Part shown: in pieces, positions 25,276-43,461 of the stretch
Layout of the letters: the number at the start of each line of letters is the position of its first letter
Numbering within the stretch: the first letter of the stretch is position 1
Source: Caldisericia bacterium
GTDB lineage: Bacteria > Caldisericota > Caldisericia > JAAYUI01
Direction of reading: 5' to 3'
Length of the DNA: 64,000 nucleotides
NCBI GenBank assembly: GCA_017999835.1
Contig: JAGNLA010000007.1
Location: 1 to 64,000, forward strand
The notes under the pieces: model-generated
The model's database searches: none
What the model was told of the DNA's origin: nothing
Seen by the model: only the letters and a program-made list of their open reading frames with translations
Program-made: the position numbers and the translations under genes

Positions 25276-27623
25276 ACTGCGATAGATTTAGAGAGATGCT
25301 TTTGGACTACATCGAGGGAACCCTCACAGGCAGGGACAAGGCTGAGTTTGATGCTCACATTGTTTCCTGTTCAGAGTGCAGGGAGCTCGTCGGGTCGTTT
25401 GGAAAACTTTCGGAATCCATCACTGACCATCTAACCGCCAAAGCTTCGAAGATAGAACCACCCGCATACCTGTGGGGCAAGATTCTTTCAAAGGTTCAAA
25501 AACAGAAAAAAGCATCGAGATTCCCAATGTTGCTCAAAGTCGGTCTCACTTTTGCCTCAGTCATCGTTGTTGTTGCAGCAGGTGTTTTCACACCAGTGTT
25601 TGGCAAGGAAGGCAACCTGCTCAATTTCATCAGCTCGAAGGTCATTGAAGGCGCAGCAAACGATTATGAACAAATGTTTACCCCAGACCTTAAAGGTCAG
25701 GTGCTAAAAGCTTATGCCGCAGACAAAATTTCCTCAGAAAGCGACATCACCCAGGATGCAATCTGGAAGATGAAAGGCGAAGGTTTCTCGCCCAAAGAGA
25801 TTGCCATTGCGACATTCATCTCGAAGAAATCAGGCAGAGACCTCGACACAGTAATTTCTGAAAGGCGTGAAGGTATCGGTTGGGGCAGAATTGCAAACAG
25901 GTCTGGCATCTCAGTGTTTTCTGTCAAAGAGATGGTAGCTCATCCAATCGAAATCGCCACTCAGGAAATTGCTGGTTCGGCGACAATAGTTCTGCCAGTG
26001 TCGGTTAGTTCGATCGAGGATGGTAAGCTTATGGTAGATTCACTCTCTGAACCCATTGAGTTTGCAGGTATACCTGTACTCGATAAAAACAACAAACCTG
26101 TCGACCTTTCCAAGATTGATACAGACGGTTTGATGATGTCATTCAACGTTGAAAATGGTGGCCTCAAGCTCTCAGGCGTCAAGCTTAATGACAGTGTTGT
26201 TGATGACCAGTCCAAATTTGCCTTTGATGGCAAGGTCGTTTCATTCGACGGTGAAAAACTGGTTTTGCAAACCGATCAGGGTAACAAGGAGATCTCGACT
26301 GTTGCTGGAGAAACGATCATGCACTCCATTACTCAAACCGGAAGTCAGGTTAGAATCTCCGGTTACATGGTTGGCAAGCGGTTCCTGGCCTGCTCGATTT
26401 CAAAACCGAGACTCAGAAAAATGCTTGGCAAGCAACAGCAGCAGGATAGCAAGGGAGAAAATCAATCCGTAAATGACCAGACTTCATCTGGACAAACGAC
26501 AAAGCAGAATAACCAGGGCAATGGAAACGGAAAATGTCAAAACGGCTCTTCAAGCGGCAACAGTTCAAACAATACCAACCAGAACCAGCTCGATACCGGC
26601 AACAATCAAACAGATAACAGCAACACAAGCAACACAAAAAACACGCATAACAATTGGGTGGCATTAAATGGCAGCCCTCTGGACACTTATCTTGTCAATT
26701 TTGACGGCCAATCAACCCTTAGCACCAAGCACGGCGACAGCTATAAGACGACAACAAACACATCGGTCTTTATCGACTTTGGTGCAAGTGGCGTCAAGCC
26801 TGTCTCACTGTCTATTCTCAATCTCCTGGCTCCTGACACTGCTATCTCGCTTATTGGAAAAGATCAAGCAGTATCGTATATAAAAATCGATAAAAAAGTT
26901 TTTACAGAAATTGATGGATGGGTAGTAAACAGAGACGGCAATCAGTGCACAGTACTTACAAAAACAGATTCCGATTTTGCAAAGAAAGTCCTTGTTATTC
27001 CGGAATGGGTTCAATCCGATGATCTCAGGATCGCCAATCGCATGGAAAACGCTTTGATTTCCGGCAATGCAATCGTGTGGAAAGGCAACGTAACGGTAAA
27101 CAAACTCAAAAAACAGGAAGGCAGAATCGATTCCATCACTCCACAGCAGATCCAGGTGAAAGGTTTGGTTATTCAGATAATTGATGGAATATCCAAGTTT
27201 AGAACCCCAAAGGGTTTGCTTGATTCGATGCCAAAAAATATCAAAATTGGCGTATCTGTTGCTGTCGATTATGTGACAATCGGCAACAAGCCAGTTGCTT
27301 TCTCAATAATGTTCCTGCAAACCGACAAAGCCGATGGAGGACCTCCTCCTGGTGGCAACAATCAGGGAGAACAACCGCCTGATGGTGGACAATCGCCGAT
27401 AAAGGTCGATTCAGTTTCAACAAAAGGAGCAAATATAATTGAGCTCAAACTGGAGAATGGCGACACAATCTGTATAAATCCAAAGATGACAAAGGTGTTC
27501 GCCATTGATGAGAATGGACAGAAGCAATCTGCAAACATTGGTGACATCAAACAAGGTGTATCAATATCCTTTAAGCTGGGCAACAAAGGACAAATGGCAG
27601 TTGAAGTGACAATCCATTCGTAA
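25272..27623 (+). CDS. Membrane-spanning zinc-type anti-sigma factor with large extracytoplasmic domain
   Basis: A 783-residue protein. Residues 1-40 form a ZAS anti-sigma domain (Cys3, His29, Cys33, Cys36 in HIVSCSEC). One membrane helix lies at ~84-108, and ~670 residues are outside. The outer part contains beta-rich segments resembling DUF5666/OB-like units, such as DGKVVSFDGEKLVL ... VRISGYMVGKRFLA. A 75-residue Asn/Gln/Ser/Thr-rich linker (~385-465) follows, then further similar units to the end. Ordinary ECF anti-sigmas have small outer domains, so this one looks built to sense or bind something on the surface. It overlaps the sigma gene by 4 nt (ATGA) and ends in a very strong terminator. 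Confidence 0.85.
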   Translation: MNCDRFREMLLDYIEGTLTGRDKAEFDAHIVSCSECRELVGSFGKLSESITDHLTAKASKIEPPAYLWGKILSKVQKQKKASRFPMLLKVGLTFASVIVVVAAGVFTPVFGKEGNLLNFISSKVIEGAANDYEQMFTPDLKGQVLKAYAADKISSESDITQDAIWKMKGEGFSPKEIAIATFISKKSGRDLDTVISERREGIGWGRIANRSGISVFSVKEMVAHPIEIATQEIAGSATIVLPVSVSSIEDGKLMVDSLSEPIEFAGIPVLDKNNKPVDLSKIDTDGLMMSFNVENGGLKLSGVKLNDSVVDDQSKFAFDGKVVSFDGEKLVLQTDQGNKEISTVAGETIMHSITQTGSQVRISGYMVGKRFLACSISKPRLRKMLGKQQQQDSKGENQSVNDQTSSGQTTKQNNQGNGNGKCQNGSSSGNSSNNTNQNQLDTGNNQTDNSNTSNTKNTHNNWVALNGSPLDTYLVNFDGQSTLSTKHGDSYKTTTNTSVFIDFGASGVKPVSLSILNLLAPDTAISLIGKDQAVSYIKIDKKVFTEIDGWVVNRDGNQCTVLTKTDSDFAKKVLVIPEWVQSDDLRIANRMENALISGNAIVWKGNVTVNKLKKQEGRIDSITPQQIQVKGLVIQIIDGISKFRTPKGLLDSMPKNIKIGVSVAVDYVTIGNKPVAFSIMFLQTDKADGGPPPGGNNQGEQPPDGGQSPIKVDSVSTKGANIIELKLENGDTICINPKMTKVFAIDENGQKQSANIGDIKQGVSISFKLGNKGQMAVEVTIHS

Positions 27624-27686: not shown

Positions 27687-30600
27687 TTAGTTTGTAAGAA
27701 CCATCTTTACTGTGATTGTTTGCGTCAGCGGTTCCCAGTCGACTTTTGCCTTGAGTGATTCGGAGATGAATCTGATTGGTACAAAGGTTTTGCCATTCTT
27801 CAATTCTGGAGGGGATGTCAGATTGACCATGTTTCCGCTGACAATTGCATAATTTTTGCCGATCCAAAGGAAGATTGTTATATCATCTTTAACGATTGTG
27901 ACCATTTTTTCAAACTGATCCCAGCTGACTTTTGCGTCCAGTGCTTCAGCAATGAATCTGAATGGAACCATAGTTTTGCCTGATGTTATATATGGTGGTG
28001 AAGTTAGAACCGTTTCTTTGCCATCAATGGTGGCTTTGGTGTTTCCAATCTGCATTTTTATGATGCGTTCCTTGGCTTTGGGTGTAACGGTGAAATCACA
28101 GAAGATAGTGTTATTGCCTAGGTTTATCTCGCCATCGGATGTTATGACCATGTAAATCCTGTGGTCTCCAGGTGTAACGATTGGAGGAACGTCGAAATTG
28201 AAGTTTAAAACTTTTGACGGCGCCAGGGAATCGATTGCGACCCGTTTGAGCTGTTTGTCGCGAGAGGGGCTGTCAATATGGAATGTGACCGAGAATGGTG
28301 ATGATGGGATCTTTGAAACATTTTGGATGATCGCATATATTTTGAATTCTGTGCCTTCAGGTACTGTTGCTGGTAGAACGTTGCATGAAATAGCCTTTAA
28401 ATCCAGCGCTTCGCTCAGATCAATGGCAAAGCCTTCTCCGCCAGTCGAACCGGCAAAATTGATAATAAGAATGCCATTCTCGTATACCGAGCTGAACCGG
28501 CAAGTGGAGGTTATGGCTTTTGGTTCTCCGGGCAAGGCGATTGCAATTATCGAAGGAGCGCCTTGAGGTGCTTGGGCAAGGATGCTGATTCTTGAATCAT
28601 ACTTATTAATCCATGGCACGGCACATGTTGATGCGATTATGTTTGGGAGTTTGTCATGATTGACCGGGACATATATTGGTGCGGGGAATCTTGGCATATC
28701 CTGAGTCTGGAGATGACGGAAAGTTATAAAACCAGCTTCGATGGATTCATTTGTGGGCTGGCAGTAAATGCATGGAGTTTTCGGTAGTGGTTCGATAATG
28801 TCGGTGAAAAACCTTGGAATAGAGCTTGTCGGCTCAACAGTTGTGAGCATGAGATTTCCGGCTCCAACTTTCATGACCTTTTCCTCTTCAATCTCCCTTA
28901 TGCCTGCAAGTTTGGCAATCTCCTTGCCAAGCGTTGTCTTCGATCCCCACCATGCAAGGTCAGAAAATCTAGATTTGCCTTGGTAGACAAGCAGTGAACC
29001 ACCCTGTTTAACCCAGTCAGAAAGCAACTGGGCTTCTTCATATGATGCATGAGTGGTTGACTCATCCAGGAACGCTGTTTTTGCTGAACCGAGTTTGTTT
29101 ACGCTGCAGAGCCTGGCGTTGATTTCCTGCTCTGAAAGCTGAGAAATCCAATCGGCATGCGTATAAGTTTTATCAAGCACACTCACCCAGAGAGTGGAAT
29201 TTGTCACAATTTGAACAAACGAGCTTTGCTCCGGATTAACCGTTGATGAAAGGTAAAGTGGTTGGAAACCGTCATAAGAAGTGCTGCCGTAAAATCCACT
29301 TGTAATGACCCCTGAAATGTAGCTGCGGAGATATTCGGGGTTGTATCCGTCGGTCAGATGTGTGTAGAACTGCTGACTAATGATCTGGCCGTCCTTGAGA
29401 CCCTCAAGGAAACTATCTGTTGTCCCTGTTGCTGTTACAAGAACCCTTTCAATTCCATCAAACCGAGGCGCAGGAAGAAGCAATCCAGACGAATAAGAAG
29501 GGATTGATATTGCGAACGCCAGCCCTGTTTCTCTGGTTTTTGTCTTGGCCATGGTCACAAGCTCATTTATTTTTGCGATGGCAAACTGTCCGAGCTTGTA
29601 TGCTGCATCGTCGTCTACGTTTGGATCAGCCCATATCCTTTTTGCCCACATCTGATAGATATCGATAAAGACGGGATCGGCATAATATTGAGGCTTAATG
29701 CAGCAGTCATCAAGCAAAATTCCATAAGCACCGTCGGCTTTTGCCAACCATGCTTCAAGTGTTGTCTCAGGGGTTCTGCTCAACAATATTTCTTTGAATG
29801 GAATTACAAGGGAAGCGTTTCCGAAAAGTCGGCAGGTTTTCAGAAGATTGGGATCGGTTACATCAAGAAACTTTGCTCCTGGCTGTATCGTGCCGGTTAT
29901 TCTGGAGCAAACATCAACCCTTGTCGCACCAGTAAGCCCGAGTCCGTCTGCAAGCGCGTCGCTATTGGAGTCAAATGATGAGCCTCCAGCCCCGACAAAT
30001 CCTTCGATGTCATCATCCAAGCCGTCATTGTCCTTATCGTTTGGGAAGAAATCCAATCCATCCTTGATGGTGTCCCTGTCTGTATCGGCAAAATCCGGGT
30101 CGGTGTCAATTGCAATTTCTGCTGAAGTCGGCAGGTTGTCGTTGTCCTGGTCGCTATCAAATGACCACGAGTAAACCAGTCCAGCGCCTTTTATGGCTGT
30201 CTCACCTGAATTGTCGGCCTGGAACCAGACTACCTGGCCTTTTCTGTTTGGTTTGGACTCACCGATCATTATTGATTCGGGGTTTGAGCACCTTAGCGAG
30301 ATCATGTCGCCAAGATTGAGGGTTTTGATTGTAAAGCCATCTTCGAGTTTGGCTCCGTTGACATCGTAAGTTCCAGTTTGGAAAATTTTGCCAAACTCCG
30401 ATGTGGGGTCTATATTTGTAAGACTATAGAAGAATGATATCCTGACAAGCCTGATGTTGTTGAGCGCTTTAATGGAAAGTTTGGATTTTTCTGGATTGAT
30501 AAGAGTAAGCGGAAAGAGTTTGAGTTTTTCTTTTGTCCAGATAAGATCCAGCCTTACGCTGTCGAGTTCAACGTCACACTCGCCTTCGTTTTCGACAAGG

Positions 30601-31229
30601 CAAAAAACCTTGTCGGCCGGGGCGTCAGCCAGAGAATAGGAAATGCTTGTGCCAGCAGGAACCGATCTCCCCCCGCCACCTGGTAGAGATGATGAGCCTG
30701 GTTCAATCAGGTGGGACAGCTCTATGGCAGTGCCCGGGAAAAGTTCAAGTTGGCGAAGAATTGAAAACCTAAGCAGATAAAACGGATTCCCTGAACCAGT
30801 TGATCTGGAGAACCTGACTATGAAAGGATTGTTTGGTTTTTGTTCGATTCGTATCTGACGCCTGATGTGATCATTGATTGATCCTGCGTCAACACCGGAG
30901 TTGTAGATGGACTGCCAAAGATCGCCACCGATGGAAACCTCGATGTTGCAAGGTCCTGAGCTGTCAATATCGACAACAAAAGGTGCGGTTCCAAGCAAAG
31001 GGATTTTATACTCAAACGAACCGTTTGTAACCCTGACATTATCCTTGAGCCATGTCTCGCGTGTGTTGGACAGGACTTCTTTTTCCGATTGCGTGCCTGG
31101 AACGATTACAATGTTTGGCGATGTCTGGATGTCAATGCACTGAATTTGTTTTGGGAAAGAGAGTGGCGTAAGGCTAGATGTTATCCAAAATGCCAATGCC
31201 AGGCAGATCTTTGCCTTCGAGGAATTCAA
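27687..31229 (-). CDS. Large secreted protein: Ca2+-binding repeats, possible glycosidase-like barrel, CARDB and stalk domains
   Basis: About 1180 residues. A signal peptide (~5-28) leads to a beta-rich N-terminal region. Thrombospondin-3-type Asp-rich repeats lie at ~355-430 (DSDQDNDNLP, DTDRD, DNDGLDDD). A region at ~458-650 (GILLDDCC and YSSGLLLP) looks like an alpha/beta barrel, perhaps glycosidase-like, and a GATase1-like segment sits at ~706-780. A CARDB-like domain (~945-1048) and a C-terminal copper-amine-oxidase-N 'stalk' domain (~1056-1180, VPFRFIAEAL and VPIRFISESL) complete it. The start is probably TTG 31229 behind GGAGGAGG, which itself lies in the last codons of pgk. Catalytic function is unproven. 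Cotranscribed with gap-pgk. Confidence 0.75.
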   Translation of the reverse strand: MNSSKAKICLALAFWITSSLTPLSFPKQIQCIDIQTSPNIVIVPGTQSEKEVLSNTRETWLKDNVRVTNGSFEYKIPLLGTAPFVVDIDSSGPCNIEVSIGGDLWQSIYNSGVDAGSINDHIRRQIRIEQKPNNPFIVRFSRSTGSGNPFYLLRFSILRQLELFPGTAIELSHLIEPGSSSLPGGGGRSVPAGTSISYSLADAPADKVFCLVENEGECDVELDSVRLDLIWTKEKLKLFPLTLINPEKSKLSIKALNNIRLVRISFFYSLTNIDPTSEFGKIFQTGTYDVNGAKLEDGFTIKTLNLGDMISLRCSNPESIMIGESKPNRKGQVVWFQADNSGETAIKGAGLVYSWSFDSDQDNDNLPTSAEIAIDTDPDFADTDRDTIKDGLDFFPNDKDNDGLDDDIEGFVGAGGSSFDSNSDALADGLGLTGATRVDVCSRITGTIQPGAKFLDVTDPNLLKTCRLFGNASLVIPFKEILLSRTPETTLEAWLAKADGAYGILLDDCCIKPQYYADPVFIDIYQMWAKRIWADPNVDDDAAYKLGQFAIAKINELVTMAKTKTRETGLAFAISIPSYSSGLLLPAPRFDGIERVLVTATGTTDSFLEGLKDGQIISQQFYTHLTDGYNPEYLRSYISGVITSGFYGSTSYDGFQPLYLSSTVNPEQSSFVQIVTNSTLWVSVLDKTYTHADWISQLSEQEINARLCSVNKLGSAKTAFLDESTTHASYEEAQLLSDWVKQGGSLLVYQGKSRFSDLAWWGSKTTLGKEIAKLAGIREIEEEKVMKVGAGNLMLTTVEPTSSIPRFFTDIIEPLPKTPCIYCQPTNESIEAGFITFRHLQTQDMPRFPAPIYVPVNHDKLPNIIASTCAVPWINKYDSRISILAQAPQGAPSIIAIALPGEPKAITSTCRFSSVYENGILIINFAGSTGGEGFAIDLSEALDLKAISCNVLPATVPEGTEFKIYAIIQNVSKIPSSPFSVTFHIDSPSRDKQLKRVAIDSLAPSKVLNFNFDVPPIVTPGDHRIYMVITSDGEINLGNNTIFCDFTVTPKAKERIIKMQIGNTKATIDGKETVLTSPPYITSGKTMVPFRFIAEALDAKVSWDQFEKMVTIVKDDITIFLWIGKNYAIVSGNMVNLTSPPELKNGKTFVPIRFISESLKAKVDWEPLTQTITVKMVLTN

Positions 31230-32355
31230 GCGATGCACCTCCTCCGGTGGATACATGGGTGAAGAAATTCGTCAGGCAGAAACGGCTTGCTGCCGCTGCA
31301 GAGTCTCCACCGCCGACAACCGAGATTGGGACGTTGTGGGCGACAGCTTCCATTACTTCCTGTGTTCCATCTGCAAAAAGAGCATTTTCAAACACACCCA
31401 GTGGTCCATTCCAAAGTACCGTGTTGCACTGCTTGAGGTTTTGGGAGAACATTTCCCGAGTTTTTGGGCCGATGTCCACACCTTCAAAACCATCAGGGAT
31501 CTCAGGGCTGTCTGTAACCATGACTTTTGTTGGGCAGTGGATGTTGTCCGCTATTACATAATCAATCGGTAGCAATATTTTCTTCCCGCGCTGGAGCTGT
31601 TCGTCCATGAACTTCTTGCATGATTCGACCATGTCGGTTGCAACCCTGGATTTTCCAACCGGAATACCTTGAGACTTCAGGAAAGTGTAGGCCATTGCGC
31701 CACCGATTACCACAAGGTCGGCCTTGTCAGTGAGGTTGTAGACCGCGATTATTTTGTCAGCCAGTTTTGCTCCACCAAACACAACAGCAAACGGACGTTT
31801 TGGGTCGCCTGTGCAGTCGCCAAGGTATTTTATCTCGTTTTGGAGAAGGAAACCTGCTACGGCTGGCTTAAGGATTGATGGTACACCATAGGTGCTGGCA
31901 TGTTTTCTGTGGGAGGTGCCGAACGCGTCTGAGACGTAGATGTCGGCAAGACTGGCAAGTTGCTGGCTGAATTTATCGTCGTTGGCTTCTTCTTCGGCAT
32001 GGAAGCGGAGATTTTCAAGAAGCAAAGCCTGACCTGGGCGAAGCTCGGAAACCATCTTCTCAGCGTCTGACCCAACGCAATCCGGTGCTAACTTCACTTC
32101 TTTGCCAAGAAGCAATGAGAGTCTGTGTGCAACTGGCAGAAGGGTATATTCCATATCCCTCTTGCCTTCAGGTCGACCAAGATGGGAACAGATGACCAGC
32201 TTGGCGTTGTGGTCAAGAAGATGCTTTATTGTTGGGATAGTCCTCTTGATGCGTGTGTCGTCCGTGATCTTGCCGTCCTGGAGCGGAAAGTTGAAATCTG
32301 CGCGCAGGAGCACTCGTTTGTTGTAAACGTTTACGAACTCCACTGACTTTTTCAT
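31174..32355 (-). CDS. pgk: Phosphoglycerate kinase
   Basis: A 393-residue glycolytic kinase forming ATP and 3-phosphoglycerate from 1,3-bisphosphoglycerate. Conserved parts: RADFNFPLQDGKITDDTRI (usually RVDxNVP), HLGRP, LLENLRFHAEE, SDAFGTSHRKHAS, the hinge AVVFGGAKLADKI, LWNGPLGVFE and the C-terminal VVGGGDSAAAA and STGGGASLEFLEG. ATG 32355 follows AGGAGGTAGG; an earlier in-frame ATG is not used. It lies 1 nt after gap and its 3' end contains the ribosome site and start of the following secreted-protein gene. Confidence 0.96.
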   Translation of the reverse strand: MKKSVEFVNVYNKRVLLRADFNFPLQDGKITDDTRIKRTIPTIKHLLDHNAKLVICSHLGRPEGKRDMEYTLLPVAHRLSLLLGKEVKLAPDCVGSDAEKMVSELRPGQALLLENLRFHAEEEANDDKFSQQLASLADIYVSDAFGTSHRKHASTYGVPSILKPAVAGFLLQNEIKYLGDCTGDPKRPFAVVFGGAKLADKIIAVYNLTDKADLVVIGGAMAYTFLKSQGIPVGKSRVATDMVESCKKFMDEQLQRGKKILLPIDYVIADNIHCPTKVMVTDSPEIPDGFEGVDIGPKTREMFSQNLKQCNTVLWNGPLGVFENALFADGTQEVMEAVAHNVPISVVGGGDSAAAASRFCLTNFFTHVSTGGGASLEFLEGKDLPGIGILDNI

Positions 32356-32356
32356 C

Positions 32357-33361
32357 CTACCTCCTAGTTGCAACTATATCGATTACTTCTGATGTTCTTG
32401 AGGAATAACCCCATTCGTTGTCGTACCAGACGAGTACTTTTATCATGTTGCCACCAAGCATCATTGTCGAGAGCGCGTCAACAGTGCCAGAGTTTGGGCA
32501 ACCTATGTAGTCGCCTGAAACAAGCGGTTCGGTCGAGAATCCAAGGATGCCTTTGAGTTCGTTGTGGCTTGCCTTGTGGAGAACAGCGTTGACTTCTTCA
32601 ACTGAAGTCTGGTCTTCAACTGTGCAGACAAAGTCAGTTATTGAAACAGTTTGAGTTGGCACCCTCAGCGAGATGCCTGTCATTTTGCCTTTGAGTTCCG
32701 GGAAAATGACAGCGACTGCCTCGGCAGCGCCGGTTGTTGTTGGGATGATGTTTGTAGCAGCGTTTCTTGCTCGCCTCAAGTCTTTGTGAGGGCCGTCAAG
32801 GATTCTCTGGTCGTTTGTGTAGGAATGGACTGTGGTCATGAACCCTTTTGTTATCTTGAAGTTTTCATTGAGCACTTTGACCACAGGCGCAAGACTGTTG
32901 GTTGTGCATGATGCGTTTGAAATGATATGGTGTTTTGCAGGGTCGTAGGAGTTGCAGTTGATCCCTCTGACAACCATGATGTCAGGTTCCTTTATCGGCG
33001 CAGAAACAACTACTTTTCTCGCCCCTGCTTCAATGTGGTCTCTTGCCTCATCGGCTTTTTTAAGTTTGCCGGTTGACTCAAGGACGATGTCCACCCCAAG
33101 GTCTTTCCATGGGAGCTGTTTAAAATCCTTGACCGATAGCACTTTGGTGTGCTTGCCGCAGCAGGTGAAACCATCGCCTTTGACCTCAATATCATGACCG
33201 AAAGCGCCATAATTGCTGTCATGCCTTAAAAGGTGAACAAGCGTTTCTGTATCCGTAATGTCGTTGACCGCAACGATGTTGTGTGTTGGGAACCTGTTGC
33301 TCAGATCCTTGAACACCTGACGACCAATCCTGCCGAAACCATTAATCGCAATGTTTGCCAT
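32357..33361 (-). CDS. gap: Glyceraldehyde-3-phosphate dehydrogenase, type I
   Basis: A 334-residue enzyme. The NAD-binding motif INGFGRIGRQ is at the N-terminus, the catalytic Cys is in SNASCTTNSLAPV (~153) and the partner His in VHSYTNDQ. It ends with WYDNEWGYSSR. It oxidises glyceraldehyde 3-phosphate to 1,3-bisphosphoglycerate, feeding pgk directly downstream. ATG 33361 has GGAGG 5 nt upstream. A promoter (33379-33406) precedes it, making gap-pgk-secreted protein one transcription unit. Confidence 0.96.
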   Translation of the reverse strand: MANIAINGFGRIGRQVFKDLSNRFPTHNIVAVNDITDTETLVHLLRHDSNYGAFGHDIEVKGDGFTCCGKHTKVLSVKDFKQLPWKDLGVDIVLESTGKLKKADEARDHIEAGARKVVVSAPIKEPDIMVVRGINCNSYDPAKHHIISNASCTTNSLAPVVKVLNENFKITKGFMTTVHSYTNDQRILDGPHKDLRRARNAATNIIPTTTGAAEAVAVIFPELKGKMTGISLRVPTQTVSITDFVCTVEDQTSVEEVNAVLHKASHNELKGILGFSTEPLVSGDYIGCPNSGTVDALSTMMLGGNMIKVLVWYDNEWGYSSRTSEVIDIVATRR

Positions 33362-33378
33362 TTGGGCCTCCAAAAACT

Positions 33379-33451: not shown

Positions 33452-36400
33452 TCAATTGCAACTGACAATCTCGATTGTTTGAGGAGTTACAATGTATCCT
33501 CCTGTTCTGCTTGCAGTTAACTGTTTGTAAACAACGTTTATGCAGCTACGGACTGTGTACCTTTCGCAACTTGTATTCATTCCGGTCAATATAACTGAAT
33601 ACTTCTTTTTTGCTGTATCTTCGCAGTTGAGAGTTGGGATTTCGCCAGAGCAACTTTTTGAAACTATTTTTAAATAGAGTATGTTTTGACACTTTTGGAT
33701 TGTGGTAGACGTGGCCTTGATGTTCTTTGACGTTTGTGAAGATGTGTAGCCTGTTATTGAAACACATGCCCCAACGTTGATTTTTGAACAATCATAGGTT
33801 TTGTTCAGGTCAACTGTGTATAGCGAAGAGTAGCTGGTTCTGACATATATGATTGAGTTTTTGCAGTCAACACGTTCAACCTTGCCACTTATTTGAACCT
33901 GACGCTGGCATTCTGTTGTTTCGATCTTGTAGCATTCAATGTAGCTGCTGTTGATTACACCATAGAAAAGTATGCAGCTGCCGATTCTAGCATTTTTACA
34001 GTCGTAGGTGCTTGGGTAGAACAGTTTGAGTGTAGCGTCGTAATAATCAACCATAATAAAGCGTTGAGAGCAACCTTCTCCAATGATGGTGGCCTTATAA
34101 GGACCGCTCATCCTGCACTCTACAACAGTAATCTGCGTTACTTCAATGGAGTAAATCACTGCAACAGCAGAGTTTGATTCGCGCAGGTAACCTTTGAGGA
34201 TTATGCAGGTATTGGGTTTGAGCGTCCTGCAGCTGTAATTTTTTGGAAGATATGCCGTGTAGAATTTGTCTCCACATCTTACAATCATGTATGGCTTCTC
34301 GGAACTGCAGTTAACGTCGAAAATATAAGCATTCCATGTTTGCTGGCATTCTACGATTGTGACTGATGTTGCAGTTACCAGTTTGTTTTCGTCAATTGTA
34401 CCTTTTATGGTTACGCATGAACCTTGTTGGATGGAGCTGCAGTCAAAGCTATCCGGCAGTTTGACGCTGTAGCTTTTTCCGTCATCGGTTTTAACAGTTA
34501 TCAGTCTGGTTCTGCAACTTACACCAACAACTGTTCCAGAAAATTCGATTGGTTCTTCAGTTGAACACTTGACTTCCTCGGCCCACTGGGCAACAAGCAT
34601 GTTGTCTTCAAATGTTCCGCAAGCCTTGATGCACATGCCTGACCAGAGTTTGTTTGAGAAGTCTACCGGCAAAACGATCATTCTTTGTGCCTTGCTGTCG
34701 TTTTCGCAAACCACCCGTCTGCTGGCGCTGTCGAACTTGATAACCTTTCCCTCAAAGCATTCAAGCTGGCAATCGGAGCTTGACGAGGCAAAGTCGATTG
34801 AATAGGCGCTGTTGGAGTATTTTACGCAGAATCGGTAGCATTTGCCTACAACCAATTCTTTGCACAGGGACTGGGAGAGGTAAGCTTCTTTGGTTTTCCC
34901 ACCAAGGTTCAGGTAGACCTTGCCATTTGTGCAGTCCAGTCTGAGGACTGTTGCATTCCAGGTTATCTTCCCATCGCATGGATCAGGAATGTCCGAGCAT
35001 GAACTCTCCGGCAAGACTTCAACCTTGCCTACAATCTTTCCGGTGAGTTTTCCATTGACCGATTCCAGACAGAAGCTTATGCACTTAGCATTCTGATATG
35101 TTTTGCAATCGGATGGGGAGAGTGTGAGCGAGTATCTTTGATCTTTGGTCATGCACTTGATGAGTACTGAAGTTGATGAGCATGTTACCTCGTACACCGA
35201 GGCAGTAACTTTTTGACAGGTTTGCCCACAAGACGAAGCATCTTCTTCAACCCAAGCAGCTTCGTAGCTGCCGTCAGAGAGCTTGTCTGAAGTGGAAAGA
35301 CAGATCTTGACGCACATTCCAACCTTTAGTCTCTGGCAAAGTCCGGAATTAATGGATATGACTTGTTTGTCTGCCTGGGTGTCGACGATTGTCATGGTGC
35401 CTTTTTTGCAGTCCAGGCTTTCAATTGTTCCCCCCAGGGTTTGACCTGAGCAGACATCTTTACACTCAGACATTGAAAGGATTTCGATGTCAACGATAAT
35501 TGGTGGTAATGCTGTCGTTGCGGTTTGAGCTTTAATGCATACCTTTACGCACAGTGGAAAATGCGATGGGGCGTTCTTTTGCAGGTATTCAAGAGCTGAG
35601 TCCGAGAGTTTCACTTTCTGAAGCTGCCCACCGGCAATAAACCTTGCTGACCCTTCGTTTGTGAAATCCAACAGTTGTCCGGTCACAGTGTCTCCGTCAC
35701 AGGACCAGTTGCAAACATCATGGTCGAGTTCAGTAAAGCCCAGCACAACGAAGGTGCCATCGGGTTTATAGTAGCCGACACATTTGTAGCAAGCGCCTTC
35801 TTTGAGCTTTTGACTCCAGTTGAAAACAAGTTTTATCAGTGTTCTGCCGGTTTCAAGCTGTGCAGTACCTTTGGCAGAATCCAGTTTTCTTAGAATTCCC
35901 CTGATTGTTTCGGTTTCTGATTCATTGCAGTCTTGGTCTCGTTTTACCCTTATGTAGTCTGCAACTATTGTTGACGGCATTGTCGTCGATGTTGCATATG
36001 TTCCGCATATCTCGACGCACTTGCCAACCATGTCGTTGCTGCAATTAAAGTCTGTCTTTGAGGTGTCGATGTTCCAGATGTTTTTGCCAATGGCAACCTT
36101 TAGCGAACCTTTTTGACAAGTCTGTCCAATTATTACACCTTCAAACTTTTGACCTTTACAGTATTTCATATTCTCACAGACCGAATCTGGGGCAAAGCTG
36201 ATGTTTTCGAGTTCAAACCATTTGTTTGCCTGGTTCCACTGGAGGCAGACCTCAAAACACCCGCCGTTTGTCATCATTTCAATGAACGCCTTGTTTTCGG
36301 TATGGAACTTGATGGTTCCGTTTTCAGTCAGAATCTCGGTGAGTTGATCCGGTTGGTATTTTGAAATGGTGCCGAAAACTTTTCTGCCTGTGCAGCTACG

Positions 36401-39400
36401 ACATGATTTTCGGTCAATTTGCCTGACCCATTGAGCCACAAACATGCGGTTTGTTGCGTCCCATTCTCCACAGAATGCCACATACTCGCCAACTCTGAGC
36501 CTGTAGCACAACGTGGCATCGTACTTGACCTTGAACTCAGAATCGCCTACGCGGATAGAAAGGTAACCAGTGCTGCAGTCAAGGGATTTTATGATGCCTT
36601 TGTGGATGTTGCCTGCGCATGATGCGCACTCTTCTTGCGGCAGGAATGAAATTGAATTTGCCAGCCATACTTTGTTTTTTGAATCATAAACCAGACAAGC
36701 CCTGATACAATCGTAAAGGTTGAGTGACACTGACTTGTCGGCAAGGAGGATCTTTATTTGGATCCCATCGGTGTCTTTGATGACTGCAACGCCTGATTCG
36801 TTGTCAATCTCGGTGACAGTTGCATTGACGAGTTTTCCGCTGCACGAGCAAGTCTGACACTTCTTTGAATCCAGAATGTCCAGAATTCTTGCAGAGAACA
36901 CTCCGTTTGCATCCTGATTCAAACAGACCCTGACACACAATCCAGGCTTGAGCGTTGAGCACCTCTCGGTGTCAATGGTTGCGGTGATTATCTCGCCGTC
37001 AACGGCAAATTTTATCTTTCCGTTATCGCAATCCAGGCTTGTAATTGTTGTTTCAATAACTCTTCCATCGCAATCTGTGCTTGACTGGCAGCTGATTTCT
37101 TTGAACCAGTTGCCTTTCATGTTGCCGCTTTCATCGGTTGATACGCAAACAAGGTAGCAGTGCTGACGAGTCATTTTGCAGAAATCATCTTTGTCAAAGG
37201 TGATCTTAAGTTTTCGAGGTGTTCTGGCCTCAATGGTCAGGATTTCGGTGCCTTCTATATATTTGTTGTTGCACCAGACAGAAGTGACGTTCACTTTTAT
37301 CATTTCGTCACATTCGCCGGGGCATTCCCCATCGTCGGTTTTTTCAAAACTTACCAGCGTGTAGGGTTCGGTTGTGACATCAAGGCAAGCCTTGATGCAC
37401 ATGCCAGCCTGGATCTGCTTGCAGATGTCAACTTCTTTTGCCTTGGCTCTAAACGATGCCTCTGTGGTCTTGAGTGAAACGATGTTGTTTTGGCAATCTG
37501 TTGCCATCACTTTGGCTATAACGGTTTTGCACTCAGGTTTTGCTTCGCATTCGCCAGGGTCAAGCGCTGTTAGTTTCACAAGGATTGGAATGGTACCGGC
37601 AACGTCATAGACGCATGCCTCAACGCAATCACCCACCTTAAAATCCTTGCATGGGTCAACAGTCTTGATTGAAATCTCTATCTTGACGCCATCAGACAGC
37701 AGCACGAGCTTGCCGTCGGTTGCGCAGTCCATATCTAAAATCTTGCCCTTGATTGTCTTGTTGCATTCAAGCTGCGGTTCCGGACAAGGGATTTCTTCCA
37801 TCCAAATCAGTTTCGGACTGAACATATTGGAAGTGTCAGCACACACTTTGTAGCATCTGCCTGGAACCAGCTTGGCGCAAACGTTTTTCAGGTTGTCGCT
37901 GACTGGAAGTTCCATCGTCATGCCTGAGCCGTACGGGCTTTTGATGACATAAACTTTTATTTTGCCGTTTTTGCAGTCGGTCGAGACAACTTTTGCTGTA
38001 AAAATGTCACCTTTACATTCTTTTGGCTGTTCTGAAGGGCAGTTTGACCCATCTACGACCACAAAAGACACAAGAGTGATGTTCCCGGCAGAATCCTTTT
38101 CAATGCATGCCCTGACGCACGTCTTGATGGCAAGGTTGGCGCAAACATCCCTTGAAATCCTATAGGTTTTTTCACCTTCGTCTGTCAGCAGTTTTACAAA
38201 CTGACCACCACAATCGATGGATGTGACAAGACCTGTGACTGTCTCTCCTTGGCAAACGCTTGGGCAGTCAATCTGCTTGAAGCTTTCAAGATGGATTTGC
38301 CCGTTTTCTCTGGTAGCGCAAATTTCGTAGCACTGACCAGATTCCATCTTGCAGAAACTCTCTGAGGTGAAAGTCCCTTCAATCAGTTCTCCACGACCAA
38401 CGTTTTCAAAAACTATGCGCTTGCCTTCACAGTCAACCCTCAGCACCTTTGCCTTAAACAGCAATTGGCACTCCTGGCACTCTTCATCTGAAAGCGGTCT
38501 GACCCAGAGGGCGACGTATTTTCCGTCAACCTTTACAGCACAAACTTCAACACAGGATTGGTTTTCAAAAGATGAAGAGTCGAGACCTTCAATGCTGACT
38601 TCGACATATTTATCACCCTGGGAGACTTTCAGGATGCCAGTTTCTTTGTTTAAATCAATGATCTTGCCTTTTAAACCTTCGCCGGTGCAGACGTTGCTGT
38701 CGCAGTCAAAAGTGAAGAGGAGATTTAGGTTTGTGTCGTCAGTCACGCAAGCCCTGAAACACTGTCCACGTCTAATCTCCATGCAGGATGTTCCCTGAGG
38801 GATTTGAGATGTAAACGTGTCGCCTGACAAAGGCTTCAAGGTTACAGAGTTGTTTGTGCAATCAGGTTTTACTACGTATCCTGAAATCCATTTGCCGTTA
38901 CAGCTGTATTCCTCTTGCGATTCAGAGCATTTGACGTGTTCGACGAATTGGGCTGCAAAGTTTGCCTCAGAAGTGAACTTGCCTGTTGCCCTGACGCATT
39001 CTCCGGCAACGAGTCTTCTTATCAAGTTGTTGAGCGAATCGAGGTTGTTGCCTGCAACAACAAGCACCTTGCCTTTTTTCGACTCCATTTCAAACGATGG
39101 TTTGTCTTTATCAACTGACAGAATTTTGCCTTCGATTGATGACAGCGATGATTCCGGGCAATCAATCAACTCGACCTTGGAAACCATCAACAACGTCGGG
39201 TCGTCGGTGCTGTCGTTTCTGCCCTCTACTCGCAGGCAGTCGCCTATCATTGGTACATAACTGCCTGATGGAGAAAGGAAAATCCTTTTTTTGTCGCCAT
39301 TCCACGAAGTCAGGATGCCAATATTGGTTTCATCGGACCATTTTTCTAGCATTCCTTCAACTGTCTCTGTACACCTGTCTGGAAACATCAGCGTTATTTG

Positions 39401-40147
39401 CTTGGTATCGCCATGCCAGAAAACTGTTCCTTCGCCCAGCGAGGTGACGGGGAATCTCAAAGGAACATAGGTAAAACCTTTATAAATGAACGGTGAAATT
39501 CTTGGGTTGGTTGGGTCAATATCAACTTCTACGCCATCCACTTGGGCTTTTGATTTGCCAATCCAGAGTTTGATTGTTTTCGATTTGTAGGTTATGTCGA
39601 CTCTTTTTTCAGTTGCATCCCAACCGATCTTTCCACCGATTTCTTCGATAACATGTCGGAAGAGGAGAAACGTTCTGTTTTCTTTTACAAGCACCGGACT
39701 CTTCATGGTTTTCTGAGTTCCATTGATATAGTAGAGCGGATTGTCGACCTGGAAGACAAGAGTTAGATTGCAGGCTTTTGCAAATGTCGGAAACTGATCT
39801 TTTGGAGTAACGCACTCTTGGTTACTTTTTGCAAACTCATCTCCCTGCAAGTTGAGTGCTGAAACGCTGTAGCATTGGATTGAGTCATTGGGGGCGTCTG
39901 TATCGATATAACTGGTGCCTACGACGGTTGAGATGTTTAGAAGATAGTATTCACCATCCTCACCTGTTTTTTTATATATAAGGTATCCCTGGGAATCCTG
40001 GACATCGTCCCAGGAGAGCCTAACCATGTTGTTGCCAGGCATGACGGATAAATGGAACGTGTCCGTCTGCGCGACGTTTGTGCCAAATGGTAATGCAAAT
40101 GCTTGAACCATCAAACAGATCGTAAAGAGAGTCACCAATTTTTTCAT
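33452..40147 (-). CDS. Giant secreted protein with ~26 cysteine-rich OB-like repeats
   Basis: 2231 residues. Signal peptide ~1-27 (VTLFTICLMVQAFALPFG), a fibronectin-III-like domain (~30-118), a copper-amine-oxidase-N 'stalk' domain (~130-255), then about 26 repeats of ~75 residues to the C-terminus. Each repeat runs hydrophobic-x-G-x-V-x-x-x-D-C, two or three beta strands, then a G-x-C-h-x-x-C centre such as GQCYEIC, GKCVEIC, GMCIKAC, a strand, and a closing acidic-x-Cys. The pattern resembles DUF5666/OB-like folds decorated with disulfides. No catalytic motif is seen; binding, structural or redox/metal roles are possible. ATG 40147 has GGAGGT upstream. I know of no named family for the repeat. 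Confidence 0.8.
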   Translation of the reverse strand: MKKLVTLFTICLMVQAFALPFGTNVAQTDTFHLSVMPGNNMVRLSWDDVQDSQGYLIYKKTGEDGEYYLLNISTVVGTSYIDTDAPNDSIQCYSVSALNLQGDEFAKSNQECVTPKDQFPTFAKACNLTLVFQVDNPLYYINGTQKTMKSPVLVKENRTFLLFRHVIEEIGGKIGWDATEKRVDITYKSKTIKLWIGKSKAQVDGVEVDIDPTNPRISPFIYKGFTYVPLRFPVTSLGEGTVFWHGDTKQITLMFPDRCTETVEGMLEKWSDETNIGILTSWNGDKKRIFLSPSGSYVPMIGDCLRVEGRNDSTDDPTLLMVSKVELIDCPESSLSSIEGKILSVDKDKPSFEMESKKGKVLVVAGNNLDSLNNLIRRLVAGECVRATGKFTSEANFAAQFVEHVKCSESQEEYSCNGKWISGYVVKPDCTNNSVTLKPLSGDTFTSQIPQGTSCMEIRRGQCFRACVTDDTNLNLLFTFDCDSNVCTGEGLKGKIIDLNKETGILKVSQGDKYVEVSIEGLDSSSFENQSCVEVCAVKVDGKYVALWVRPLSDEECQECQLLFKAKVLRVDCEGKRIVFENVGRGELIEGTFTSESFCKMESGQCYEICATRENGQIHLESFKQIDCPSVCQGETVTGLVTSIDCGGQFVKLLTDEGEKTYRISRDVCANLAIKTCVRACIEKDSAGNITLVSFVVVDGSNCPSEQPKECKGDIFTAKVVSTDCKNGKIKVYVIKSPYGSGMTMELPVSDNLKNVCAKLVPGRCYKVCADTSNMFSPKLIWMEEIPCPEPQLECNKTIKGKILDMDCATDGKLVLLSDGVKIEISIKTVDPCKDFKVGDCVEACVYDVAGTIPILVKLTALDPGECEAKPECKTVIAKVMATDCQNNIVSLKTTEASFRAKAKEVDICKQIQAGMCIKACLDVTTEPYTLVSFEKTDDGECPGECDEMIKVNVTSVWCNNKYIEGTEILTIEARTPRKLKITFDKDDFCKMTRQHCYLVCVSTDESGNMKGNWFKEISCQSSTDCDGRVIETTITSLDCDNGKIKFAVDGEIITATIDTERCSTLKPGLCVRVCLNQDANGVFSARILDILDSKKCQTCSCSGKLVNATVTEIDNESGVAVIKDTDGIQIKILLADKSVSLNLYDCIRACLVYDSKNKVWLANSISFLPQEECASCAGNIHKGIIKSLDCSTGYLSIRVGDSEFKVKYDATLCYRLRVGEYVAFCGEWDATNRMFVAQWVRQIDRKSCRSCTGRKVFGTISKYQPDQLTEILTENGTIKFHTENKAFIEMMTNGGCFEVCLQWNQANKWFELENISFAPDSVCENMKYCKGQKFEGVIIGQTCQKGSLKVAIGKNIWNIDTSKTDFNCSNDMVGKCVEICGTYATSTTMPSTIVADYIRVKRDQDCNESETETIRGILRKLDSAKGTAQLETGRTLIKLVFNWSQKLKEGACYKCVGYYKPDGTFVVLGFTELDHDVCNWSCDGDTVTGQLLDFTNEGSARFIAGGQLQKVKLSDSALEYLQKNAPSHFPLCVKVCIKAQTATTALPPIIVDIEILSMSECKDVCSGQTLGGTIESLDCKKGTMTIVDTQADKQVISINSGLCQRLKVGMCVKICLSTSDKLSDGSYEAAWVEEDASSCGQTCQKVTASVYEVTCSSTSVLIKCMTKDQRYSLTLSPSDCKTYQNAKCISFCLESVNGKLTGKIVGKVEVLPESSCSDIPDPCDGKITWNATVLRLDCTNGKVYLNLGGKTKEAYLSQSLCKELVVGKCYRFCVKYSNSAYSIDFASSSSDCQLECFEGKVIKFDSASRRVVCENDSKAQRMIVLPVDFSNKLWSGMCIKACGTFEDNMLVAQWAEEVKCSTEEPIEFSGTVVGVSCRTRLITVKTDDGKSYSVKLPDSFDCSSIQQGSCVTIKGTIDENKLVTATSVTIVECQQTWNAYIFDVNCSSEKPYMIVRCGDKFYTAYLPKNYSCRTLKPNTCIILKGYLRESNSAVAVIYSIEVTQITVVECRMSGPYKATIIGEGCSQRFIMVDYYDATLKLFYPSTYDCKNARIGSCILFYGVINSSYIECYKIETTECQRQVQISGKVERVDCKNSIIYVRTSYSSLYTVDLNKTYDCSKINVGACVSITGYTSSQTSKNIKATSTTIQKCQNILYLKIVSKSCSGEIPTLNCEDTAKKKYSVILTGMNTSCERYTVRSCINVVYKQLTASRTGGYIVTPQTIEIVSCN
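33455..39381 (-). repeat. Coding repeat array, about 26 units of ~75 codons
   Basis: Units are recognisable at protein level by D-C near the start and G-x-C-x-x-x-C in the middle, but they are diverged in DNA, so the array is old. Units 3-21 mostly keep the second central Cys. Units 1-2 and 22-26 lack it, for example GECVRATG and GSCVTIKG. Confidence 0.75.
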
Positions 40148-40356
40148 TTTAACCTCCGATTCTTCTATGATAACGTTTGTGCAAAAAATGGGCAATAGCA
40201 TGAAACCAGAACAATATTCGTTCTTTTCACGAGGTTATTGACAAATGAGATTGTTTTACAAACAAAAACCGAAAATTACAGGTAGATATTTTGCTACATC
40301 GTGTAGTAACAACATTTGAAACAATCTTGCGATTTTTCAATTAATCCTGTCTTTTG

Positions 40357-40421: not shown

Positions 40422-42236
40422 ATGGGTAACGAGAGAAGAATTAAGATGCGCAGAAAAGAGAACTTTGAACTCAAGATCAAACGTGCAGACGGTCCAAAAC
40501 CGATGGCGCTTGGATGGAAGATTACCATTTGGACACTTGTCGGCATTCTTGTAATTTTGACAGGTTTTGGCATTTGGGCGTATTCCGGCCGCTTGATTGA
40601 AGCGTCGGTTGGATCTCAATCAATCAAAACAAAGGATCTTGAGAACAGGGTTAATGTAAATATTAGCCAACAGTACACGCAGGATCAGATCAACCAGCTT
40701 ACAAACGAGCAGAAGCAACAGCTCTACACATCTGCAAAGGAACAAACCCTTCAGCAGATGATTCAGGAAAAGCTGTTCTTCGAAGCCGCAAAGAGACAGA
40801 ACGTCAAGATCACCGACGACGAAATCACCACCGAAGCCCAGAAGATTATTGACGAGCAGATCAAGGCATCGCTCAAGCAGCAGAACCAGGATTTCAAAGA
40901 ATGGCTCAAGACCCAGGGTTATGAGGGCGACGACGCTGAAGTTAGATTCCGTGATTTTATCAAGACAAACCAGATCGACCAGATCGAACTGACAATCTAC
41001 AAGAAAAAAATCCTTGATGATCCAATTCTCAACAAGATACAGATCACAGACGAGGAAGCAAAGGCGTACTATCTTGGAGTCGGTTCAAAGAAGATCAGCC
41101 ATATTCTTATCAAGTACGATTCAAAAACAGACACACCCGAAGTTGGAAAACAGGCTCTCCAGACGATTACAGACATCAAGAAGCTCCTCGATGAAAAAAA
41201 GAAAACGTTTGCTGAACTTGCCAAGGAAAAATCACAGGACAAACAAACAGGTTCTGATGGCAAGGAAGCCGGTTCAGCTGTTAACGGTGGTGACCTTGGA
41301 TGGTACACTGTTTCAGGCGATCAGCTTACAACCCAGTCATCAAGTGGCCAGACTGCAGGATTGGTCAAGGAATTCAACGATGAAGCAATGAAACTTGATA
41401 AGGGCCAAATTTCAAACCCAGTTCAAACCCAGTATGGCTATCATCTTATCACCATCACCGACATCAAACTCAGAAATGACAATTACAACATTTCTGCAGG
41501 CGCAAGAATCGCCATAATTAAGTTCGTAACAGTTGGTCAGGCAGATGAGCAAGGCAATCCACAGCCACTTCCAGCCGAAGAACTGAAAACAAAAGAAAAA
41601 ACCGCAAACACAGTTCTTGCTGACATCAAGGCAGGCAGAGTTACATTCGAAGAAGCCGTAAAAATCAATTCAGAAGACCAGCTTACAAAAAACAACACAA
41701 ACAACCCAGGCGAAATGCCGTTCGGCAACGACAGATTCGAAAAGGATCAGGCAAAGAACAAGTTCTGGGCAACAATTGAAGATGCCCAGACACAATCACA
41801 AATGGGTTACCCGTTTGAGCCGGAAATTGTAGAAGCGGCGCTCAAGGCAAAATCGGGACAGACTCTTCCATCAGTCATGAAAACGTCAAGCGCACTTTAC
41901 ATCGTCAAGGTCATTGATGTCAGAGCAGCAAGAAAAACTAGCTTCGACGAAGTCAAAGAACTTGTAAAGAGCGACATGGAAACAACAAAGCGTAACGACG
42001 AAGCCACAAAGTGGATTACCGAAAGACAGAATGAGTATGGCATAAGGACAGGTAATGCATGGAAGAGCTTCACGTTATGGTGGGATCGTTACATCGGTTC
42101 TCCGCTCTCCGACTTTGGACTATGGGTCAAGCAGTTCATGGGCAAGGGTGGATCCTCCTCTTCATCGGCTCCAACTACTACAGTTCAACCGGGTGGAGAT
42201 ACAACAACACCGACAACCACACCAACAGACAAATAA
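40422..42236 (+). CDS. Membrane-anchored SurA/PrsA-like foldase with parvulin domain
   Basis: 604 residues. A basic N-terminus and one membrane helix (~32-54) put the rest outside. A SurA_N-like helical domain (~60-215) with many Gln/Lys/Glu residues precedes a clear parvulin (PpiC) domain at ~223-349: ISHILIKYD, FAELAKEKS, GGDLGWYT, NPVQTQYGYHLI. A second, degenerate parvulin-like unit spans ~360-520. A Pro/Thr-rich tail ends the protein. It should fold or hold exported proteins and prolyl-isomerise them. ATG 40422 has GGAGG upstream. The next gene is a shorter relative, so the two may act together. Confidence 0.88.
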   Translation: MGNERRIKMRRKENFELKIKRADGPKPMALGWKITIWTLVGILVILTGFGIWAYSGRLIEASVGSQSIKTKDLENRVNVNISQQYTQDQINQLTNEQKQQLYTSAKEQTLQQMIQEKLFFEAAKRQNVKITDDEITTEAQKIIDEQIKASLKQQNQDFKEWLKTQGYEGDDAEVRFRDFIKTNQIDQIELTIYKKKILDDPILNKIQITDEEAKAYYLGVGSKKISHILIKYDSKTDTPEVGKQALQTITDIKKLLDEKKKTFAELAKEKSQDKQTGSDGKEAGSAVNGGDLGWYTVSGDQLTTQSSSGQTAGLVKEFNDEAMKLDKGQISNPVQTQYGYHLITITDIKLRNDNYNISAGARIAIIKFVTVGQADEQGNPQPLPAEELKTKEKTANTVLADIKAGRVTFEEAVKINSEDQLTKNNTNNPGEMPFGNDRFEKDQAKNKFWATIEDAQTQSQMGYPFEPEIVEAALKAKSGQTLPSVMKTSSALYIVKVIDVRAARKTSFDEVKELVKSDMETTKRNDEATKWITERQNEYGIRTGNAWKSFTLWWDRYIGSPLSDFGLWVKQFMGKGGSSSSSAPTTTVQPGGDTTTPTTTPTDK

Positions 42237-42258
42237 ATAATCAAACAATGGAGGCCAA

Positions 42259-43461
42259 ATGGCTGTACAGAAAGTGCTAACAAAGAAGAACAAAAAAACC
42301 GGAAGCTGGACAAGCTATCTTCTGCTCCCTGGAGTTATCGTTGCAGTGGCGCTTGCAGTCCTTGTTGGCATGTTTGTTTATGTCTACAGTAAGCGTAGCG
42401 TTGCCAGGATTATCGATAATATTCCAATCACAGAAAGACAAATAGGCATTGAAATCGATAACCTTAAAAAGGAAAACTCATCTTTCAAACCACCGACCAA
42501 CGCCTCTCAGGCTGAAATAGACGAAGCTTACAAAACTGCGCGCTCTGCTGCTCTCACAAGGCGTACCAATATGGCACTCATCGAACTTGAAGCGCGTGAG
42601 AAAAAACTTGACGATGTAGCTTGGGATGAAATCCAGCAGAGAATGGACGAAGCCCTGAAATCTGCCGGCATGACCGAAGAACAGTATCTTGTAGAGTTAA
42701 ACATCTCCAGACAGGATTTCATTGATCAAACCAGAGAAATCATCATCTATGAACGCGTGACCAAAGACATCTATGCCTCGGTTAGCGAACCAACCAAAGA
42801 TAATCTGAAACAATACTTTGACAACATAAAAGACATGTATCAGATTGGCGAGACCGCAGATTTCTATATGTGCATGGTCAAAAACATGGATGATGGAAAG
42901 AAAGTTCTTGAGTCTATCGAACAGGATCAAAAAAAGGGTTTGAAACTTGAAGCTGCGATGGCGAATGCAGTAAAGAAATTCTCAACAGATGCAGACTCAA
43001 AGAAGACTGATGGGAAGATGATCGACATTCCCAAGGAATATTTCAACGAAACACCTGAAGTCGCAAACGCAATCTTTCCATCCGATAAAACCCCCCAAGA
43101 AGCGCAGCTTTCAGTTGGTATTGTCCAACCGATTATTACTCAAAAAAAGGGTGTTTACATCATTCTTCTTCTCAAGAAAAACCCACCTCAGAAACCAGAT
43201 CTCGATGGTTCTTGGAAGCTCTACAATACCGAAACAAAAACGTATGACACAATCAAGATATTCGACATGGTAAAGCAAGCATGGATGTATGATCAGGGTC
43301 AGGCGAAGGTCACAAAGCATCTCAACGATCTCTCAAACAAACACGAAGACCTCATCTATGACAGGGTTAAAGGCAATCTTCCATGGAGCGGACTCGAGAA
43401 ATTCTATCAGGGGATTCTTGGTACAACAGTGTTTAACCGCATAATGGGATGGGAAGAATAA
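42259..43461 (+). CDS. Membrane-anchored SurA-N-like chaperone, degenerate isomerase domain
   Basis: 400 residues. A basic start, one membrane helix (~20-43), a SurA_N-like helical domain (~50-190) containing LVELNISRQDFIDQTREIIIYE, then a weak parvulin-like region (~190-310). The latter lacks the HILI and GGDLGW signatures of the upstream paralogue. It is therefore more likely a holdase than an active isomerase. GGAGG precedes ATG 42259. The stop overlaps the next start (TAATG). Probably exported-protein folding alongside the 604-residue protein. Confidence 0.75.
   Translation: MAVQKVLTKKNKKTGSWTSYLLLPGVIVAVALAVLVGMFVYVYSKRSVARIIDNIPITERQIGIEIDNLKKENSSFKPPTNASQAEIDEAYKTARSAALTRRTNMALIELEAREKKLDDVAWDEIQQRMDEALKSAGMTEEQYLVELNISRQDFIDQTREIIIYERVTKDIYASVSEPTKDNLKQYFDNIKDMYQIGETADFYMCMVKNMDDGKKVLESIEQDQKKGLKLEAAMANAVKKFSTDADSKKTDGKMIDIPKEYFNETPEVANAIFPSDKTPQEAQLSVGIVQPIITQKKGVYIILLLKKNPPQKPDLDGSWKLYNTETKTYDTIKIFDMVKQAWMYDQGQAKVTKHLNDLSNKHEDLIYDRVKGNLPWSGLEKFYQGILGTTVFNRIMGWEE

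Follow-up and report, generated by a model that had tools for sequence, protein, structure and literature searches.

An exported Caldisericia protein with 26 tandem OB-fold units and paired cysteines, a probable disulfide-stapled chain remotely related to DUF5666

CusF and SilF, the periplasmic Cu/Ag chaperones, are small exported five-stranded OB barrels with His/Met/Trp metal ligands. The NTR, C345C and TIMP domains of animals are OB barrels with several disulfides and, to our knowledge, do not occur in bacterial tandem arrays. The Cu_amine_oxidN1 ('stalk') domain (PF07833) is known from Desulfotomaculum reducens surface proteins (PMC4137172), and a self-assembly domain of the Viridibacillus arvi S-layer (PDB 9FS9) has been placed at a lattice symmetry axis (PMC11410804). 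Among obligate anaerobes, a tendency to keep Cys out of exported proteins has been reported (PMC12453122). Chains of disulfide-stapled OB folds like the one proposed here were not described in the literature that we searched.

The window, i.e., the whole stretch of 64,000 nucleotides analyzed, corresponds to contig C17 in a Caldisericia assembly of 1.89 Mb (92.75% complete). Its gene P0001 (33452..40147, minus strand) is translated from 40147 to 33452 into 2231 residues plus stop, in agreement with the originally predicted ORF. A ribosome-binding site GGAGG was read from the sequence at 40153..40157 (minus strand), five bases before the ATG at 40147; hence this start was preferred over the longest-ORF start at 40201. 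Downstream of P0001 lie genes named from their sequences as GAPDH and phosphoglycerate kinase (PGK) (31174..33373, minus strand), and on the other side a divergent pair of SurA-like/PPIC foldase genes (40422..43461, plus strand; Pfam SurA_N_3 and Rotamase) in a neighborhood conserved by synteny. In the sister genus, the syntenic orthologue (P0008) also lies between SurA-like foldase genes and GAPDH–PGK, with the order array–GAPDH–PGK kept. Two sister-genus orthologues from two species are under purifying selection (dN ~0.035, dS ~0.258, dN/dS ~0.14) and have kept 70 of 70 Cys. Judged by the syntenic orthologue, the dN/dS value and the Cys conservation, P0001 is a real, conserved gene.

Three further large proteins are encoded in the window. 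A 1189-aa exported protein with CARDB and a C-terminal Cu_amine_oxidN1 domain (27687-31256, minus strand) adjoins PGK and has a similar neighbor in the sister genus. A 2211-aa exported protein (51654-58289, minus strand) includes a C25 peptidase domain of the gingipain type along with CARDB and a beta-propeller region, and a 783-aa protein (25272-27623, plus strand) has an N-terminal zf-HC2 zinc finger of the anti-sigma type, followed by a long remainder without a Pfam match. The host assembly and the genomes with syntenic orthologues, titled Caldisericia or Caldisericales, belong to one family. Two of the latter have 'SlDig' in the isolate name, which we read as sludge digester, and from its group and habitat the host Caldisericota lineage is probably anaerobic.

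The architecture of P0001 is of the export type, and on its sequence P0001 is an exported protein. Inspection of the sequence predicts a signal peptide at about residues 1–26 (MKKLVTLFTICLMVQAFALPFGTNVA; 40070..40147, minus strand), followed by an Fn3-like domain (residues ~29–116; 39800..40063, minus strand) and a Cu_amine_oxidN1 domain (residues 140–252; 39392..39730, minus strand) that passes the Pfam cut-off clearly (E 1e-20, 74.1 bits vs. 24.2). The Fn3-like domain was detected with the profile A6, built from six paralogues, which matches the Fn3 structures 3mpc (E 2.6e-10) and 5g56, a carbohydrate-binding protein (E 8.6e-9); none of the Pfam Fn3 models passes on this fibronectin-like region of the original prediction. 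The remainder, residues 259–2230 (33458..39373, minus strand), was resolved by unit tiling, profile and models into exactly 26 units of 75.8 residues on average (sd 4.1), every one of which closes with Cys. P0001 holds 135 Cys (6.1%), 130 of them after residue 270, compared with 0–2.4% in the other window ORFs tested. The secretion, the stalk domain, the ~26 Cys-rich units of ~75 residues with a closing Cys and the more than one hundred cysteines of the original prediction were all borne out, and its proposed D-C and G-x-C-x-x-x-C motif was seen in part: D-C occurs in 18 of the 26 units, as does a Cys four residues after G-x-C, so neither is universal. Neither SLH nor LPXTG was noticed by eye in P0001, and no SLH match was obtained in Pfam.

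A profile search with the units, suggested as a check of the prediction, recovered 26/26 of them with i-Evalues of 3e-11 or better, the profile having been built from these same units; independent support came from ~24 units in one paralogue, 7 in another and 12–22 in sister-species proteins. All Pfam and NCBIfam families stay below their cut-offs on the units, and sequence searches of Pfam, NCBIfam and PDB returned no covering family, just weak S1/OB matches. The claim that no named domain covers the units thus stood at the level of family cut-offs, but it had missed their fold and a remote kinship, both described below.

Six Cys positions (a to f, in three pairs a–e, b–c and d–f) recur in the units. 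Units 1–2 (38927..39373, minus strand) have mainly the d–f pair, units 3–21 (34565..38926, minus strand) mostly all six Cys, with units 4, 12, 14, 16, 17 and 21 devoid of both b and c, and units 22–26 (33458..34564, minus strand) the four-Cys form (b–c, d–f) devoid of both a and e. Otherwise the units have strongly diverged, being 10–33% identical to a reference unit and differing in their loops; the conserved columns besides Cys are a Gly two residues before Cys d and mainly hydrophobic positions. Such divergence, together with the variation of unit number between genomes, would fit an adhesin or multivalent binding array, in which each OB bead would use the face at which OB folds usually bind to hold a carbohydrate, peptide or particle, and the diverged units would give breadth or avidity. 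This possibility is also favored by the general character of the parts: ligand binding is typical of OB barrels, and many extracellular binders have Fn3 heads. Column conservation, however, did not bring out any clear polar or aromatic surface site shared by the units. An adhesin built in the same way is the strongest rival of the structural chain favored here, and we regard it as rather unlikely.

The fold of the units was approached with AlphaFold2. Unit 11 modeled alone (36857..37087, minus strand; 92-row alignment) reached a mean pLDDT of 89.7, with strands at 9–19, 24–29 and 32–37, a short helix at 43–45 and strands at 51–58 and 64–72. The prediction of consecutive units, another suggested check, gave for units 5–7 (37784..38476, minus strand) a confident model (mean pLDDT 91.5) of three separate barrels, but of a known fold; at a pTM of 0.54 their relative orientation is not fixed and a rigid fiber is unsupported. 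Both models follow the OB order strand 1-2-3-helix-4-5. Their best structural matches in the PDB were CusF/SilF (Z 10.9–10.0, rmsd 2.0–2.3 Å over 72–75 residues; top match Z 10.9, 2.0 Å, 75 residues), and the other top matches were mostly OB folds, including RPA, RuvA and SSB. The sister-genus paralogue P0012, searched as a whole protein, matches the Pfam OB family tRNA_anti-codon (E 5.8e-16, 58.6 vs. 27 bits), with no single stretch passing that cut-off by itself. That the units are five-stranded OB barrels is well supported by these high-confidence predictions, and on the models P0001 represents a new variant of the OB fold and not a new fold.

The three-unit model also aligns with the C-terminal domain of complement C3b (Z 7.5, 2.5 Å, 78 residues), and the gene for a large C25 peptidase lies at a distance of 11 kb, so that an inhibitor or receptor-like module may be imagined, with the OB units used like animal NTR, TIMP or C345C domains, e.g., in protease inhibition. 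We consider this highly improbable: Pfam gave no NTR or TIMP match, a Z below 8 may mean just a shared arrangement, and 26 copies would be unusual.

The evidence for disulfides comes from the way in which the cysteines vary. Over 102 units of six proteins, Cys b and c were both present in 77 units and both missing in 25, with no discordant case (102/102). The a–e pair was concordant in 97/102 units (5 discordant), and d–f, with 15 discordant units, some of which are due to clipped unit ends, was weaker. In P0001 alone, 26/26 units have either both or neither of b and c (p 6.4e-7), and a and e are concordant in 25/26 (p 5.8e-6) or 24/26 (p 9.3e-5), depending on how Cys 259 of unit 1 is treated, as Ca or not; these p-values ignore the kinship among units. 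In a tree of the units built with the Cys columns left out, b and c change ~16 times each, always together, and control pairs need 30–31 joint changes. Gain and loss in pairs suggests the signature of disulfides as opposed to metal sites or haem, with the d–f assignment being weaker as it was reached partly by elimination.

On the models, the b–c staple would link Cys at the end of strand 1 and the beginning of the helix, the d–f staple Cys at the beginning of strand 4 and the C-terminus, and the a–e staple Cys in the N-terminal tail and midway along strand 4. The barrel end at which strands 1 and 5 finish appears to be also the one at which the helix and strand 4 begin, which would suit the b–c and d–f bonds. 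From these patterns the P0001 cysteines are probably oxidized.

In a sulfidic anaerobe, ~134 reduced thiols per chain could instead bind soft metals or sulfur, or keep a reserve of thiols at the surface. The closeness of the models to the Cu/Ag chaperones CusF and SilF, the very high Cys content and the failure to find a recognized disulfide-forming enzyme are in favor of such a metal- or electron-handling array. The cysteines, however, change in pairs and not as 3- or 4-ligand sites, and P0001 has too few His (10) and Met (39) among its 2231 residues for a CusF-like His/Met/Trp site in each unit. The metal option of the original prediction is thereby weakened, and we find it improbable. Its haem/electron option did not survive, P0001 having no CxxCH haem motif and only 10 His; a haem wire of the multihaem c-type cytochrome kind was rejected on the absence of CxxCH.

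The ancestry of the units was traced through their paralogues. DUF5666 (PF18914) reaches 24.3 bits on P0001, below its gathering cut-off of 27, and matches 1 of the 26 single units (E 0.0088); hhalign of the P0001 units alone against DUF5666 gave a non-significant 1.4%. A bridge is provided by P0013, encoded in the same genome (contig C8). Its 15 units have the b–c pair only or lack Cys pairs, and one of them passes the DUF5666 Pfam cut-off (28.7 bits). In profile comparisons, the P0001 units matched the P0013 units at 96.0%, the P0013 units matched canonical DUF5666, taken from other families within the class, at 97.7% (E 1.5e-12) and the pooled units matched DUF5666 at 80.7%, against 2.1% or less for the controls (Cu_amine_oxidN1, Ig-like and a reversed profile). 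P0005 (2260 aa, contig C26) takes an intermediate place, its units having anywhere from zero to six Cys. By these comparisons the P0001 units appear to be remote kin of DUF5666, connected via P0013/P0005 only, and we do not claim family membership.

The paralogues of this one genome form a ladder of 2-, 4- and 6-Cys units. One small domain may have been armed with Cys pairs in steps (2, 4, then 6), though change along the ladder could have gone either way. Another paralogue, P0002 (L022 3679-8349), has at residues ~305–980 eight copies of a different Cys-rich module (G-C-A-x-x-C ... C-C), followed by seven OB units; the idea that this module is a further OB unit was unsupported (hhalign 11% or less).

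The units were present in five Caldisericia genomes, all of one family. Outside this family, a search of the phylum (54 genomes) gave one weak single match at the 1e-5 limit, and 392 genomes of two other phyla gave no unit match, which by itself proves little. Genome scans with whole P0001 produced no matches, and those with the sister-genus orthologues picked up four Caldisericia/Caldisericales genomes. At the same syntenic place the array comprises 6, 13–14 or 26 units. When P0001 units (U) were paired with those of the 13–14-unit sister orthologue (V), U1 and U3–U7 corresponded to V1 and V3–V7 and U21–U25 roughly to V8–V12, with U8–U20 left without a one-to-one partner; the sequences are compatible both with a gain of U8–U20 in P0001 and with their loss in the sister orthologue. 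Two other sister species have only six units at the syntenic place, then another gene. As read from these comparisons, array length is labile and the head is conserved. The genes that follow the six-unit arrays (L051 7785-12781 and L056 5129-9074) are extra Cys-containing genes, probably for PQQ-like propellers, with a Cu_amine_oxidN1-like match.

VKOR, DsbB and Thioredoxin_4 were not found in 5/5 genomes of the family, nor was DsbA (PF01323) in the window genome, the only one searched for it; control genomes gave matches. The failure to find a recognized oxidation enzyme counts against the disulfide reading of the P0001 cysteines. At locus L094 (791-2845) of the window genome, three adjacent envelope-type thioredoxin genes, two of whose products have a lipobox-like Cys, are followed by a DsbD_TM/CcdA-like gene; from its sequence this is a candidate disulfide-exchange operon. 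CcdA systems are usually reductive. If this probable anaerobe, with no recognizable DsbA, DsbB or VKOR, builds part of its envelope from exported proteins with >130 disulfide-forming Cys, it would need an unrecognized oxidative-folding route, a possibility that we raise tentatively and hold to be rather unlikely, for instance a CcdA–thioredoxin relay run in the oxidizing direction with sulfur compounds as electron acceptor.

Other Cys-rich exported proteins occur in these genomes. Two adjacent genes at L025 (109-4680 and 5031-8717) encode exported proteins with 4.4% and 7.2% Cys, apparently made of Cys-rich Ig-like (CARDB/NEW3-like) repeats plus Cu_amine_oxidN1, a second Cys-rich repeat type. 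Among Cu_amine_oxidN1 proteins, 5/10 had an even Cys number, i.e., no signal of an even-Cys bias in this small sample.

Altogether, P0001 is probably best read as an exported beads-on-a-string protein, a disulfide-armored OB chain that would serve as a surface fiber or coat, the architecture being well supported and the role inferred. Behind a head of Fn3-like and Cu_amine_oxidN1 domains would come a tandem row of 26 small OB barrels, all derived from a DUF5666-like ancestor and each holding up to three intradomain disulfides. The host genome of 1.9 Mb has ~70 Cu_amine_oxidN1 loci in many architectures; given this abundance and the occurrence of the domain in surface proteins elsewhere, it is taken as a general surface module, which suggests an attachment function in this lineage. 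The head would thus hold P0001 at the envelope, and the array would form an extended protease- and heat-resistant structural fiber or coat with a length tuned by unit gain and loss. Likely helpers in folding and disulfide exchange would be the neighboring exported SurA-like foldases and the membrane CcdA/thioredoxin operon elsewhere in the genome. The structural role of the array rests on analogy; of the options in the original prediction, the disulfide-braced fiber fits best.

A fold and a probable disulfide map can now be given to a giant protein covered by no family model, with the Cys ladder, the variation of array length and the missing oxidation enzymes as the main points of interest. 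A Cys-rich exported protein is surprising in a probable anaerobe in which the usual enzymes of disulfide formation were not found, and runs contrary to the Cys exclusion reported for obligate anaerobes (PMC12453122), which makes P0001 a concrete test case for disulfide formation in such cells. Long disulfide-stapled OB chains may also offer stable scaffolds.

Set beside the known systems, P0001 shares PF07833 with the 'stalk' surface proteins, and its OB array lies outside that family. The S-layer domain 9FS9 shows a partial likeness (Foldseek E ~0.009, TM ~0.5), but at an alignment rmsd of 4.3–5.6 Å the same fold as in the P0001 units is not established. The likeness to NTR/C345C/TIMP domains is structural only, with the C3b C-terminal domain at Z 7.5 and no sequence relation found in Pfam. 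CusF and SilF are likewise small exported five-stranded OB barrels; unlike P0001, to which they are 12–17% identical, they are single domains with no disulfide array, and their His/Met/Trp ligands have no corresponding conserved column in the P0001 units. DUF5666 resembles these units in its length of ~60–75 residues, its G-x-V start and the 'L..G..V.V.G' before the last strands, whereas the P0001 units fall below its cut-off, have no 'T.I..NGK' loop, are strung into an array of 26 and in most cases contain paired Cys, four to six of them.
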